Below, piece after piece: positions 2,155 to 25,517 of a stretch of 64,000 bases of DNA. Below the pieces are notes generated by a model. That model ran no database searches and was not told the origin of the DNA. It was given only the letters and a program-made list of their open reading frames with translations. A program made the translations under genes and the position numbers. This DNA comes from Lachnospiraceae bacterium. GTDB taxonomy: Bacteria; Bacillota; Clostridia; Lachnospirales; Lachnospiraceae. Where the stretch lies: the NCBI GenBank assembly GCA_017552985.1, contig JAFZNO010000076.1, positions 17,593 to 81,592 on the forward strand, given 5' to 3'. Numbering within the stretch: position 1 is the stretch's first letter; every line of letters starts with the position of its first letter.

Positions 2155-2616
2155 ATGAAGACAATCAGAGTTGTGGCAGCAGTCATAAAATCCGTCGATC
2201 CTGACGGAAGGCCCGTGATCTTTGCAACCCAGCGGGGATATGGGGAGTTTAAGGACGGATGGGAATTCCCGGGCGGGAAGATCGAACCGGGCGAGACGCC
2301 CGGGGAGGCGCTGGTCAGGGAGATCAGGGAAGAACTGGGAACGGAGATCACCGTGGGTGAGAAGATCATGACGGTAGAACATGATTATCCGGAATTTCAT
2401 TTGTCCATGGACTGCTTTTGGTGTGAGGTGCAGAAGGGAAACCTGGAACTGCGTGAGCATGAGGCGGCGCGGTGGCTGACGGCGGAGACGCTGGAGGACG
2501 TAGACTGGCTTCCCGCGGACGTGGAATTGATAAGGCAGCTGCGCGATGAACTGGTGGCTGGCGGACGGAAAGAGGAAAAAACGCCATTGGAAAGGCAAGT
2601 GGAGGGCGAAAGATGA
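2155..2616 (+). CDS. Nudix hydrolase, MutT/8-oxo-dGTP diphosphatase type
   Basis: 153 residues. The complete Nudix box is present: G41, E47, R55-E56, E59-E60 and G62 (GX5EX7REUXEEXGU). The preceding WEFPGGK (about 36-42) and the C-terminal HEAARWLTAETLEDVDWLPADVELI are typical of MutT-family enzymes, which hydrolyse oxidised nucleotides such as 8-oxo-dGTP to the monophosphate. Residues after about 140 are a charged extension. The stop overlaps the start of the next gene by 4 bp (ATGA). No strong ribosome site precedes ATG 2155. Exact substrate is inferred. Confidence 0.88.
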   Translation: MKTIRVVAAVIKSVDPDGRPVIFATQRGYGEFKDGWEFPGGKIEPGETPGEALVREIREELGTEITVGEKIMTVEHDYPEFHLSMDCFWCEVQKGNLELREHEAARWLTAETLEDVDWLPADVELIRQLRDELVAGGRKEEKTPLERQVEGER

Positions 2617-5156: not shown

Positions 5157-6446
5157 TTACGGACGGCCGGACGAATGCTCTTTTAAAAATTGATGGTAGG
5201 CATTTACCAGGGTTTGGTATCCCAGGGCCTTTAGGTCTTCATAGCGCGCGTTGTATTTGGCTTTTGTGTGCTTTCCCGTGAGCAAGGTGCGGATGCACTC
5301 CTGTGCGTAAAGGTCGATGACATGGAGGCTGTCCGTGACGGTGAGCGTCGGGAAATACCAATAGCTCCAGGAGAGATCATTCTCCACGGGGCTTTCCAAA
5401 AGCTTGCGGTGAAAGGTGCGGATAAAAGCCTTTGCCGGCTTTTCACCCAAAAGGTCGTTTCGTTTTTGCCAGCGCTGCAGGGCCCTCACCTTGCGGCGCA
5501 TTTTTTTCTTGATCTTTTGGACGGAGACGGGGGATACGTCCACCTGACCGTCCCGTACGTAAAAGCCAAGGAAGAGAAAACCTTCTTCCGGCGTGCGGAA
5601 TTCTTCCTTCGCCGGATTGACGGCAAGACCCTTTTCCGAAAGAAAACTCCGGATGGCATCGGCATGGCGCTGGACTTCTTCCATGGAATCACCGAAGACG
5701 ATGACGTCATCGCTGTAACGGGCGTAGGGAATGTCCTGGTCATAAAAGAACTGATCCATGTCGCGGAGGTACAGGTTCGCGTAAAAGCATGCCAGCGGCG
5801 TGCCCGCCATGATGCCCTTTTGTTCCCGGATCAGATTGCCTTCAGGTGACTGGCCGCCCCTCACGCAGGGCTCCGTTAAAAGAGACTTTAGGAAGAAAAA
5901 CAGCGTCGGATCGTCCTTTGTCACGGCTTCCAGTTCCGGAAGGAGTCTATCGATGGGGATGGAGTTAAAGTAATTGCTGACGTCGACTTTATAAGTGTAT
6001 TTCCGTCGTAAGTCTGGAATCTTATGGAGCCGCCGGATGGCGTCCTTGGCACTCCTGTTTGGGCGAAACGAAAAAAGGTTGTCGCAAAACAGTCCGTCAT
6101 ACTTTCGAAGAAGCAGATAGGTCAAAAGCTTTAGGACCAAGTTCTCCGCTTCCGGATAGGTATAGACCACGCGCTTTTTCTGGGAGCTTTGCTTGCTGAT
6201 GACGGATTTCCGGGGCAGGGGGAACTGTACGCCGGAGGCCGTTTCCCTGGAAACAGGAAAATGTTCGGCGGAAGCGGTCTGCCGGGAAGTGATTTGCCGG
6301 ATCTCCTCGCAGACGGGAAGGTACCCCTGCACGTCAATAAACTCCCGCAGGCTCCGGGCAGCAGCCCCTTGGCAGGCGAGAGACGTCTTATATGCATAAA
6401 ATTTTTCCCAGACTTCCTGCTGGGAGAGGCTATCCAATAAAGACAT
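5157..6446 (-). CDS. orphan reverse transcriptase, group II-like/retron-like, unclassified
   Basis: 429 residues from ATG 6446 (GAGG nine bases upstream). An in-frame TTG start at 6542 would add 32 residues and run into the RNA-like element. RT core: FSFRPNRSAKDAI (125-137, motif 2); KVDVSNYF (153-160) with catalytic D155; KGIMAGTPLACFYANLYL (210-227, motif 4); YSDD (244-247), the catalytic box with Ser for Ala; and LFLGFYV (291-297, motif 7). A helical thumb-like C-terminus ends LGYQTLVNAYHQF. No maturase DNA-binding or HNH domain follows, and no intron domain V was noticed. Residues 54-77 are two tandem 12-residue repeats (SRQTASAEHFPV / SRETASGVQFPL). The classic retron motifs NAxxH and VTG were not found. 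The upstream structured element suggests a retron or defence-RT system. Confidence 0.8.
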   Translation of the reverse strand: MSLLDSLSQQEVWEKFYAYKTSLACQGAAARSLREFIDVQGYLPVCEEIRQITSRQTASAEHFPVSRETASGVQFPLPRKSVISKQSSQKKRVVYTYPEAENLVLKLLTYLLLRKYDGLFCDNLFSFRPNRSAKDAIRRLHKIPDLRRKYTYKVDVSNYFNSIPIDRLLPELEAVTKDDPTLFFFLKSLLTEPCVRGGQSPEGNLIREQKGIMAGTPLACFYANLYLRDMDQFFYDQDIPYARYSDDVIVFGDSMEEVQRHADAIRSFLSEKGLAVNPAKEEFRTPEEGFLFLGFYVRDGQVDVSPVSVQKIKKKMRRKVRALQRWQKRNDLLGEKPAKAFIRTFHRKLLESPVENDLSWSYWYFPTLTVTDSLHVIDLYAQECIRTLLTGKHTKAKYNARYEDLKALGYQTLVNAYHQFLKEHSSGRP

Positions 6447-6510
6447 TTCGGGACCCTCGGACGGCGTTTGCCAAATCACTTGCACGCGTGGATTAGATTG
6501 GTTACATATA

Positions 6511-6651
6511 AAAAACAGGAAGAGAAAAGGGTTAAAATTCAAGGAAATTCCTTGAATTCTACGGGATCGTACGTGAAACGGCTGCCTGCGAAACCATAAA
6601 TTGTTTCACGCCGGACCCGCCACAGGCGCTAAGCGTTCTCTTCCTGTTTTT
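6511..6651 (-). ncRNA. candidate structured RNA (msr-msd-like) upstream of the RT
   Basis: Read on the minus strand, this 141-bp segment starts and ends in a perfect 16-bp inverted repeat (6636-6651 pairs with 6511-6526, AAAAACAGGAAGAGAA and its complement), like the a1/a2 arms of a retron RNA. Inside lie an 11-bp palindrome (6536-6546 / 6548-6558) next to the 3' arm, and an 8-bp repeat CGTGAAAC/GTTTCACG (6572-6579 / 6603-6610). Just after the 5' arm is a TTAGC (6628-6632), the context in which some retrons branch at G, though five bases can occur by chance. It sits between the upstream gene stop (6684) and the RT start (6446). Existence as an RNA is inferred. Confidence 0.5.
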
Positions 6652-6683
6652 GGCGTTGAGCGTATGTAGTTGCTTGGTAGCGA

Positions 6684-7205
6684 TCACTGGTTCAAGGCTT
6701 TCTTGGTGCGCTCGATGACGTAAGCCTTCGTGTTCCACCAGCCTGGATGGTTGTAGTAGAACCTAAGATAGGGTACGTGCTCCTTGTGGCAGTTGTAGCG
6801 GACGCTATCGGCAGAACTGGTATCGGACATCAGTTCCACCACCAAAGCCCTTGCGTCGCCGTTCCAAAAAGTGATCTTGGTCGCGCGGCCCTTGCGGATG
6901 GAATCCGACGTCAGGCGGTACGCGGGAAAATTCTTGGAATATACGTAAAGGAAGTACTGATCATAGGTGCCGGGATAATTAAACTGATTCTCCTCATCGG
7001 GCATCGTGGGGCCCCAGGAGAATCCAGACTCCGCACCGGAAGAAGAGGGTGCGGGTGCAGCGGATGCAGGCCGTGCGTTAGACGCGGCAGAATTGGGATT
7101 TGCTGCGGCATTTACGGCATTGGTAGCTTCTTTTGCCACGGTCTCAGCGGCATTTTTAATCTTGTCAGCGACGTTGGAACCAAACAGTTTGTCTAGAAAG
7201 CCCAT
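6684..7205 (-). CDS. hypothetical protein upstream of the RT element
   Basis: 173 residues from ATG 7205, chosen over an upstream frame start because AAAGGGGG precedes it. The N-terminus MGFLDKLFGSNVADKIKNAA is amphipathic, followed by an Ala/Ser/Pro-rich linker (about 30-65). The C-terminal domain (about 75-173) is rich in Tyr/Trp (YDQYFLYVYSKN, PGWWNTKAYV). No known family or catalytic motif was recognised. The gene is on the same strand as the RT, and its stop is 33 bp before the 5' arm of the structured element. It could be an accessory partner or an unrelated neighbour. Confidence 0.65.
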   Translation of the reverse strand: MGFLDKLFGSNVADKIKNAAETVAKEATNAVNAAANPNSAASNARPASAAPAPSSSGAESGFSWGPTMPDEENQFNYPGTYDQYFLYVYSKNFPAYRLTSDSIRKGRATKITFWNGDARALVVELMSDTSSADSVRYNCHKEHVPYLRFYYNHPGWWNTKAYVIERTKKALNQ

Positions 7206-7310
7206 GTGTATTCCCCCTTTATTTTTCGATGGAAGTATGCTAATGTTTATTATAATCAAAGAAATGATGCGTGACAAGCATTTTCTTTTTGTCCATTGGA
7301 GCGTTACAAA

Positions 7311-9104
7311 ATGAAAAACCTGATCAAAACCTTAGACCGGTGCTTGCGCTGGATCGATCATAAGCCGTTATGGCTATTTGGCTTTCTTCTGTTTGCCGTC
7401 GCGTTTGCTCCCATCGCCATGCTGGGGGAGGGATGCGTGTTTACGTGGCATGATCAGTTGGATGAGTCCATGATGAACTACGTGTTGACCGCCAGGCACT
7501 TGGGGCAAAGCGAGATCCCGGAAATGATGGGAGGCATCCGAGCCAGCGGAATAACGCCTTCGGCCATTCTGTTTCTGCCGCTGTTCTTGCTTCTTTCGCC
7601 GTTCAAAGCATTTTTGACGGCTTACGTGTTTATCTTCTTTTGCGCCTTTTTGGGAACGTATTTTCTTGTGAAGGAGCTGACGGAGAGTAATCTTCTGGCG
7701 GTTGCGACCGCCTCATGCTTTGCGATGCTGCCGTATTACGTGATCTACGGCCTGTCACAGATGGGGATTCCGATGGTGATCCTTGGTTTTCTGTATCTGT
7801 GCAGGAAAAAAAGAATCCTTCCGGCCCTTGGCATGATCGCGCTGTTTGGTTTTTGCAGTCATCTGGTACTCACGGGATACTGCGTTCTCGGCTTTGCCGT
7901 GCTTCTGATCCTGTACCGCTTGATACGCAAGGAAGAGATCAAGCATTGTCTGATCGGATTCTTTGTATTGCTGGGTACCTACGTGATCTCGTGCTTTCGC
8001 CTCTTTCAGGAGATATTATTTGGCACGGGGGATTTTGTCAGTCACCGGGTGGAGACGGTGAGTGGCAGTCAGCCCTTTTTTGAAACGGTTTGGAGCGTGT
8101 TGAAGGAAGGCTCCCAGCACATGTATGGCTATCAGGGAACGCTGATCCTTCCCATGATCCTGCTACTGGCCGTGGGCGCATTTTTCCTGCGCGGGTGGGA
8201 GAAGGAGCGTAGGACCAGATATTGGATCGCCTTGGGCGGTTTCGTTGTTTTGATTGGGATCGCCGTTTTCTTCGGCATTTGCAAGTCGGAGCCCGTGGTG
8301 CAGTGGAAGAACGGTCAGGCAGGGTTCCTACGGTATTTCCAGATGGAACGTTTTTACTGGCTGTATCCAGCGGGGTGGCTTCTGGAGCTGGCCGTGATCA
8401 TTTCCTGCTGGTGGCCGGTCCGCAAGGAAGACGATGAAGAGAAAGCGTCTTACGGTAAAGCCGATGCCGGGCAGGGGAAGCTTTGGCAGAGCGAGACGAT
8501 CCTTTGCGTGATCTTCGCGGGAATCCTGCTGCCGGTGGTCATAAAGATCGCGGCGAATTCCTTTTTCTACCAGAACGTCAATCAGTATAACAACAGGACC
8601 AGGCCGGAGATCACGGGTTATATTACTTGGGAAGGTTATTACTCCGAGGACGTCATGAAGCAGATTGATGAAAAGATCGGCAAGGATAAGAAAACCTATC
8701 GCGTTGCGCATCTTGGCATGAATCCCGGCGTTTCCCTCATGCACGGATTCTATACGGTTGACGGCTATTCCAACAATTATTCCCTGGAGTATAAGCATAA
8801 ATTCCGCAAGGTCATTGCGAAGGAATTGGAAAAGGTGCCGGCGACGGCAAGCTATTTTGATGATTGGGGAAGCAGGTGCTACCTGTTCAATTCCCAGTCG
8901 GGCACGGCATACATGTTGTCGAAGCGGGATCAGGTCAAGTATCAGGGCTTGGAATTTGACCTGGATGCCTTGAAGGATCTGGGATGTGAATATATTTTCT
9001 CCGCGGGGGAGATCCGGGACGCAGAGCAGACGGGACTAAAGCCTCTGGGCTATTATGAGTCGGATACCTCTTATTGGGGAATCTGGTTATATGAATTGAA
9101 TTAG
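7311..9104 (+). CDS. DUF6044 (YkoS-like) polytopic membrane protein
   Basis: 597 residues from ATG 7311 (GGAG nine bases upstream; an upstream in-frame TTG was rejected). About ten to twelve hydrophobic segments occupy residues 15-430. They are followed by a soluble domain with the conserved run MNPGVSLMHGFYTVDGYSNN (about 470-490) and LKDLGCEYIFSAGEI. The layout resembles the Bacillus YkoS/DUF6044 family, possibly GT-C-like or YfhO-like glycosylation-related membrane proteins, but function is unproven. It is transcribed toward the ABC-F gene and ends at a shared bidirectional terminator. Confidence 0.75.
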   Translation: MKNLIKTLDRCLRWIDHKPLWLFGFLLFAVAFAPIAMLGEGCVFTWHDQLDESMMNYVLTARHLGQSEIPEMMGGIRASGITPSAILFLPLFLLLSPFKAFLTAYVFIFFCAFLGTYFLVKELTESNLLAVATASCFAMLPYYVIYGLSQMGIPMVILGFLYLCRKKRILPALGMIALFGFCSHLVLTGYCVLGFAVLLILYRLIRKEEIKHCLIGFFVLLGTYVISCFRLFQEILFGTGDFVSHRVETVSGSQPFFETVWSVLKEGSQHMYGYQGTLILPMILLLAVGAFFLRGWEKERRTRYWIALGGFVVLIGIAVFFGICKSEPVVQWKNGQAGFLRYFQMERFYWLYPAGWLLELAVIISCWWPVRKEDDEEKASYGKADAGQGKLWQSETILCVIFAGILLPVVIKIAANSFFYQNVNQYNNRTRPEITGYITWEGYYSEDVMKQIDEKIGKDKKTYRVAHLGMNPGVSLMHGFYTVDGYSNNYSLEYKHKFRKVIAKELEKVPATASYFDDWGSRCYLFNSQSGTAYMLSKRDQVKYQGLEFDLDALKDLGCEYIFSAGEIRDAEQTGLKPLGYYESDTSYWGIWLYELN

Positions 9105-18560: not shown

Positions 18561-18840
18561 AATGGGTCACAGGGACATATTTACTGACACATAAATTTCT
18601 AAAACTTGCAACATACTCGAGGGGATGGCTTGATAGTATCCCTCAGGCATGTGTGCCAAGCGTCGGTACTTAGGTGGCGTATACGAGCGAATTTGTCACG
18701 TGTGATGGATTCGCTCGTGACACCTTAGCACCGATACGCTGCACTCATAGTGCGAACGTGCCTGAGGGATACTATCAAGCCTCGGCCCCGAGTTTTTCAG
18801 TTTTGAAAATGTGTCAGTAGATATGTCCCCGTGACCCAAT
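18561..18840. repeat. 280-bp nested palindromic element (MITE/REP-like)
   Basis: The outer 32-bp arms at 18561-18592 and 18809-18840 match at 29 of 32 positions (GGGTCAC...GGGACATAT...ACTGACACAT). The middle arms at 18615-18649 and 18759-18793 contain a perfect 23-bp core (GGCTTGATAGTATCCCTCAGGCA, split here for length: GGCTTGATAGTA then TCCCTCAGGCA). The inner arms are CGGTACTTAGGTG (18664-18676) with CACCTTAGCACCG (18721-18733), and CGAGCGAAT (18684-18692) with ATTCGCTCG (18709-18717). The whole could fold into one long cruciform or RNA hairpin. No ORF is inside. It fills the gap between convergent UPF0340 and methyltransferase genes. Confidence 0.8.
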
Positions 18841-25470: not shown

Positions 25471-25517
25471 AACAGTATATAACAGTTTGTAACAGTTGTC
25501 AACTGTTATATACTGTT
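25471..25517. promoter_or_regulatory. double palindromic operator of the GntR-ABC operon
   Basis: AACAGTATATAACAGTT (25471-25487) is a perfect 17-bp inverted match to AACTGTTATATACTGTT (25501-25517). A second palindrome, TAACAGTTG-T-CAACTGTTA (25490-25508), is nested inside. Repeated AACAGTT/AACTGTT half-sites suggest two or more overlapping GntR dimers. Confidence 0.75.

Follow-up and report, generated by a model that had tools for sequence, protein, structure and literature searches.

A UG26 reverse transcriptase of a Lachnospiraceae bacterium is encoded with a pseudoknotted RT-5 RNA and a nuclease-like partner in a predicted defence unit

What is made by a reverse transcriptase (RT) gene that is preceded by a short segment closed by a perfect inverted repeat? 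The question is raised by positions 5,157–6,651 of a 64,000-nucleotide stretch from a Lachnospiraceae bacterium (contig JAFZNO010000076.1 of assembly GCA_017552985.1; the whole stretch analysed is referred to below as the window). The locus was originally predicted from its sequence to hold an orphan RT of a possible new retron or defence-RT system. It encodes an RT of the UG26 family with an intact active site, a conserved pseudoknotted RNA and a partner protein, and the three are linked across the family. Taken as a whole, the locus is fairly probably a UG26 defence RT (DRT) system, in which the RNA serves as scaffold and probably as template for a repeat-containing cDNA used in phage defence.

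Classification with the PADLOC models, proposed along with the original prediction, assigns the RT to RT_UG26 with 544 bits (E 4.1e-164), while the next-ranked models give at most 123 bits; among the other UG models UG17, UG27, UG4, Drt9, UG18 and Drt3a score best. Pfam RVT_1 is matched as well. In an alignment of 73 family RTs, picked for diversity from about 100, D155, D246 and D247 are invariant and the YSDD motif is present in every sequence, including that of the window. The most likely start of the gene is the ATG at 6446, resulting in a protein of 429 amino acids (aa) with the frame ending at 5157; the alternative longer frame from TTG 6542 would start within the RNA. Judged by its sequence, the protein is a UG26 RT, i.e. 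a predicted defence RT.

The segment upstream of the RT gene (Table 1) is a full-length member of the Rfam family RT-5 (RF03026), scoring 86.3 bits against the gathering threshold of 45.7 with the core at 6524–6631. RT-5 is the sole Rfam family above threshold within the 64-kb window. The covariance model R1, built solely from 61 distinct RNAs with the window's RNA among its seed rows, gives 127 bits (E 4.6e-27) for this site, and at E 1 it matches nothing else in the window. The perfect 16-bp inverted repeat bounding 141 bp that was pointed out originally is indeed there, its 16-nt arms being 100% complementary, and such repeats (span up to 150) occurred in none of 40 first-order simulations of the window. 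For the RNA strand the folding energy is −59.7 kcal/mol (z −6.98 against 200 shuffles). Of the inner elements reported before, the 11-bp palindrome corresponds to hairpin SL3 (14-nt arms, 93%), and the 8-bp inverted repeat (CGTGAAAC/GTTTCACG) falls in stem P2 as read from the sequence. Two further perfect inverted repeats of at least 16 bp and with a span of up to 150 bp are found elsewhere in the window, at 18630–18778 and 25471–25517.

The fold of the RNA is formed by the outer stem P1, the small hairpin SL1, the long hairpin P2, the hairpin SL3 and the pseudoknot PK1. It was examined in the 61 RNAs of R1 (the window's and 60 of 79 window-like ones, near-identical and over-long sequences removed), where these elements jointly have 93.8% of alignment cells paired and both bases change in 33 of 46 pairs. 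None of 500 shuffles, which ignore relatedness, attains any of five measures of this structure, and sliding the alignment by one column lowers the pairing to 45–49%. The covariation of the stems in homologues is strong. PK1 consists of six base pairs, which join CCUGYG near the 5' end to CGCAGG in the loop at the tip of P2. Pairing holds in 99.7% of its cells, and three of the six pairs change on both sides, including a replacement of U-A by C-G in five RNAs. The four extra pairs contributed by the apical helix P2b also vary at both positions, and 89.7% of their cells are paired. SL1 has no such changes among the 61 RNAs and covaries in 16 divergent RNAs (group B). When group B was folded separately, the RNAalifold consensus recovered P1, SL1 and P2, and compensatory changes occur in 21 of its 31 pairs; SL3 is not in this consensus of 16 RNAs. 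R1 recovers all 16 of them and the RNA of locus L073 (E 2.4e-14 to 5.5e-4, 62 loci searched), with no match at E 1 in five UG17/DRT9 loci (L159–L163) or in two group II intron loci. Unlike this structure, the 104-nt Rfam model of RT-5 leaves P1, SL1 and PK1 unpaired. The outer stem, the small hairpin and the 6-bp pseudoknot are new relative to that model, and compensatory changes are seen in the stem and the pseudoknot. The idea of a defence-type RT behind a genuine structured RNA is borne out by the UG26 model, by RT-5 and by the covariation of the stems.

Two arms around a structured middle, followed on the same strand by an RT gene, and an AGC near the 5' arm match the layout of a retron, in which the arms would be a1 and a2, the middle would be msr-msd, and a branched G would prime the synthesis of multicopy single-stranded DNA (msDNA). 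On the protein side, however, the UG26 model is far ahead, and the NCBIfam retron model yields 47.8 bits against its cut-off of 235. The hallmarks of retron RTs are the NAxxH and VTG motifs. Both are missing from the window's RT, as was observed originally; NAxxH is present in none of the 73 aligned RTs and VTG in 12 of them (11 times as VTGRHYKG near the C-terminus and once within an insert), out of retron-like context. On the RNA side, the TTAGC following the 5' arm is present but forms the loop and the 3' strand of SL1, so that the AGC sits inside a hairpin, and a single pseudoknotted fold covers the entire RNA. A retron is therefore extremely improbable; of the two kinds of system first considered, the defence RT stands. 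The probability of a decayed group II intron retaining its RT and a piece of RNA is practically nil. No intron domain is present in the window at the Rfam gathering score, the group II model reaches 113 bits, short of its cut-off of 300, and the universal YSDD and the covarying RNA form a family-wide pattern which, together with the Rfam result, refutes such an origin.

The linkage of RNA, partner and RT was followed in a working set of 105 loci comprising the window, 24 loci and another 80 loci, the latter being the best 80 of at least 535 relatives in a scan of named genomes. The best 80 are biased to close relatives, and some loci come from the same genome or are near copies. The RNA is present in 98 of the 105 loci, 97 being found by nhmmer and one (L074) by Rfam and R1; 92 of the 97 are distinct, with identical RNAs in five locus pairs. 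Four of the loci without RNA have less than 160 nt of upstream sequence (L071, L098, L107 and L140). Only in three of the 101 others (L053, L094 and L126) do nhmmer and R1 find no RNA despite ample upstream sequence, so that homologous RTs without the upstream element are the exception. The partner gene is found in 96 of the 105 loci, including the window, where it lies directly upstream; the RT is not an orphan as was thought. This count includes the 22 proteins used to build the search model, L074 (E 5.5e-7, dissimilar sequence) and L156, where the top match is a fusion downstream of the RT. The upstream sequence is insufficient in five partner-less loci (L071, L098, L107, L117 and L140) and sufficient in four (L053, L090, L094 and L126). 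The RTs of L053, L094 and L126, for which both RNA and partner are missing, may stand alone as orphans or may have their RNA elsewhere. That the window encodes a UG26 RT within a three-part unit of partner, RT-5 RNA and RT is practically certain.

Matches to the RNA and to the RT are found in nearly the same genomes. Among 146 relatives, RT-5 RNA is present in 22, the window's own genome included (20 above the family cut-off), and UG26-like RTs at E 1e-40 in 25, or 24 after removal of L075, the RT of which is 25% identical to that of the window and adjoins a group II intron. In a sample of the phylum 3 of 398 genomes matched, namely the window's genome, L074 and L076, the last being rejected as a group II intron RT. 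The titles of the best 80 of at least 535 relatives are mainly those of ruminant-gut Lachnospiraceae, Oscillospiraceae, Ruminococcus and unplaced Clostridia; the nearest relative among the matches listed is an uncultured Lachnospiraceae bacterium (L077, 96% identical). One locus, L113, comes from a named isolate, Ruminococcus flavefaciens MA2007. The search of viral contigs with the window's RT gave no match, and that with the RT alignment gave two distant RTs of 23–27% identity.

The distance from the stop codon of the partner gene to the RNA is 3–140 nt with a median of 19 (n=94; L074 and L156 excluded), whereas that from the RNA to the RT is 8–2240 nt (n=97). In six loci (L059, L065, L104, L129, L141 and L144) the latter gap exceeds 250 nt (491–2240 nt) and the RNA still stands beside the partner gene. 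The RNA thus tracks the 3' end of the partner. Because of this position and of a promoter-like site ahead of the partner gene, we infer one transcript, from which the RNA would be cut or terminated; the number of promoter-like sites in 6350–7450 (one, against a mean of 1.4 in shuffled sequence) gives no evidence of function. The same distances would fit an RNA belonging primarily to the partner, as a product of its 3' untranslated region or as one half of an RNA–protein pair, with the RT added later. This is quite improbable given the rarity of RTs without the RNA and the near coincidence of RNA and RT matches in the 146 genomes, although no systematic search for RT-less RNA was made.

The partner is composed of a hydrophobic N-terminal motif, a linker and a C-terminal PD-(D/E)XK-like domain. 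At E 0.001 Pfam gives no match for the protein; PADLOC RTasCOG2852 is matched by 62 of 72 partners scanned, which were picked for diversity from about 94. The catalytic set of PD-(D/E)XK nucleases consists of D plus (D/E)xK. In the model the C-terminal domain resembles this nuclease fold without the full catalytic set: E124 is present in 57 of 57 window-like and in none of 15 divergent partners; a K two positions later is seen in 3 of 57 and none of 15, respectively, and D at positions 111–113 in none of the 72 aligned partners. The mean moment of the N-terminus is 0.33 against 0.22 in shuffled sequences (the window's own being 0.22), and 24% of 94 sequences exceed the 95th percentile, which weakly supports an amphipathic membrane helix. 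In L156 the second partner-like protein (about 7722–8507, plus strand) is fused to a part which we take to be a zinc ribbon.

How might the three parts act together? The RNA, made with or cut from the partner transcript, would be bound by the RT as a scaffold, and binding of this RNA by the window's RT is very likely. That it is also the template seems moderately probable. In that case the unpaired segment that links SL3 to the 3' arm of P1 would be copied repeatedly into a cDNA of short repeats. A hydroxyl at the C-terminus of the RT may act as primer; no universal C-terminal priming residue was found when looked for. The partner, nuclease-like in fold but lacking the full catalytic set, might sense or deliver the cDNA, taking the place of SLATT in DRT10. 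Phage defence is the likely outcome.

The choice of this segment follows DRT10, where the template directly adjoins the 3' side of a stem-loop and, through its A-B-A' pattern, allows the cDNA to slip back (PMC12632851). The segment after SL3 reads UUUAA, a short variable stretch and pyrimidines in 80 of 97 RNAs (73 as UUUAA-NNN-YU(U/C)), and in the other 17 it is UUCAAA or UCUCAAA. By analogy we hypothesize an A-B-A' template. The identity of A and A' is weakly enriched, at 3.32 against 3.11 in re-paired controls (p 0.003; 57 distinct segments, relatedness not removed). Several observations weigh against this step: A and A' match over only 2 nt in 18 of the 57 segments, the pyrimidine arm by itself favours such matches, and in group B the segment may pair with the loop of SL3 instead. 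Copying of short tandem repeats from this segment is hence possible but somewhat doubtful.

The group B complementarity between segment and loop exceeds that of the re-paired control (p 0.003; 0.017 without duplicates), the pairing shifting its register among the members. Together with the strong structural conservation across the whole RNA, it would suit an RNA that is only a scaffold or regulator, the segment being the kissing partner of the SL3 loop and the RT product untemplated or templated by the host. No such pairing is visible by eye in group A, to which the window belongs. Besides, templating by the RNA is what the Class 2 DRTs studied so far have in common (PMC13174585), an argument that applies only if UG26 is of Class 2; the Class 2 trait of an RNA encoded in cis with the RT is held by the 98 loci with RNA. 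A role as scaffold alone is unlikely. As a separate observation, the RNA of L156 carries an additional hairpin that separates SL3 from the candidate template; its A and A' both read GTTT.

One of the nearest known systems is DRT10 (UG17), which also has three parts and a short noncoding RNA (ncRNA), with a template placed, like the candidate one here, 3' of a stem-loop before the closing 3' arm (PMC12632851); the order there is RNA-SLATT-RT versus partner-RNA-RT in UG26, and the partner is SLATT rather than a nuclease-like protein. Plain membership in DRT10 was rejected (UG17 model 101 bits, UG26 544), as was a SLATT partner, the protein matching RTasCOG2852. DRT9 has a poly-U template (PMC12483538), while the UG26 segment is not poly-U and an additional partner gene is present; the segment variants given above exclude a DRT9-like poly-U, which is irrelevant if the template lies elsewhere. 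A pseudoknotted RNA adjoining the RT is shared with DRT2 (PMC12039810). The UG26 RNA of about 141 nt has no visible counterpart to the RNA-derived gene of DRT2, a comparison made without a test. It would be tempting, if somewhat unlikely, to see here a compact telomerase-like enzyme that synthesises repeats in gut Clostridia: the RT would recopy a 9-nt segment, A' would reset it, and the nuclease-derived, catalytically degenerate partner from the same transcript would read the repeats and trigger defence. The product predicted for the window would be repeats of GGGTTAAAA.

None of the parts is new singly, since RT, RNA and partner are each named in databases. The PADLOC models RT_UG26 and RTasCOG2852 (DRT class, 2023) give family names only, with no mechanism and, as displayed, no RNA. 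Searches by title, beginning of abstract and term counts, which left key earlier surveys uncovered, found no study of the function of the UG26/RT-5 system; the one RT paper mentioning UG26 is a viral survey naming it only in passing (PMC10504277). UG26 is most likely an uncharacterised DRT type. The suggestion of a new type is half right: the components are already named, and the searches found no paper on their mechanism. The present analysis brings three separately named entries together as one unit, adds the pseudoknot and the outer stem that complete the RNA structure, and gives a concrete and cheap prediction of the DNA product for a family of at least 535 relatives. Defence RTs with known RNA yield odd DNA: a new gene (DRT2), poly-dA (DRT9) and tandem repeats (DRT10). 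If true, the proposal would add a new partner type to DRT10-like systems, themselves proposed to be near the origin of telomerase.

Table 1. Features of the UG26 locus in window coordinates.
Feature	Position	Strand	Basis
UG26 reverse transcriptase, 429 aa	5157..6446	minus	PADLOC RT_UG26; Pfam RVT_1; YSDD intact
Whole RT-associated ncRNA, ~141 nt with outer stem	6511..6651	minus	Covariance model R1; Rfam RT-5
Outer stem P1, 5' arm	6636..6651	minus	15 of 16 P1 pairs change on both sides; 91.7% of cells paired
Small hairpin SL1 (CGC-TTA-GCG), contains TTAGC	6627..6635	minus	98.9% of cells paired in the 61 window-like RNAs
Pseudoknot PK1, 5' strand (partner strand 6585–6590)	6621..6626	minus	Pairing across the 61 window-like RNAs
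Long hairpin P2 with apical helix P2b (6592–6595 with 6580–6583)	6564..6618	minus	Covariation
Pseudoknot PK1, 3' strand, apical loop of P2b	6585..6590	minus	Pairing across the 61 window-like RNAs
Hairpin SL3	6533..6561	minus	Complementarity; alignment
Candidate template UUUU-AACCC-UUUU	6525..6537	minus	A 6534–6537, B 6529–6533, A' 6525–6528; read from sequence
Outer stem P1, 3' arm, U run at end	6511..6526	minus	Complementarity; covariation
Partner protein, 173 aa	6684..7205	minus	PADLOC RTasCOG2852, 198 bits; AlphaFold2 model, fold comparison
Promoter-like TTGTCA-17-TATAAT upstream of partner	7249..7277	minus	Consensus scan, 11 of 12 matches

In L061, L066 and L068 the cassette stands directly upstream of two genes, which from their sequence are presumably luxS-like and nucleosidase-like, and the neighbours are different at the other loci shown. 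With its neighbours varying in this way, the cassette has the look of a mobile unit. In the window itself, the open reading frame at 2155–2616 (plus strand, 153 aa) matches the PADLOC candidate defence model PDC-S07 with 162 bits; we take it to be Nudix hydrolase-like, and it may be an ordinary gene.
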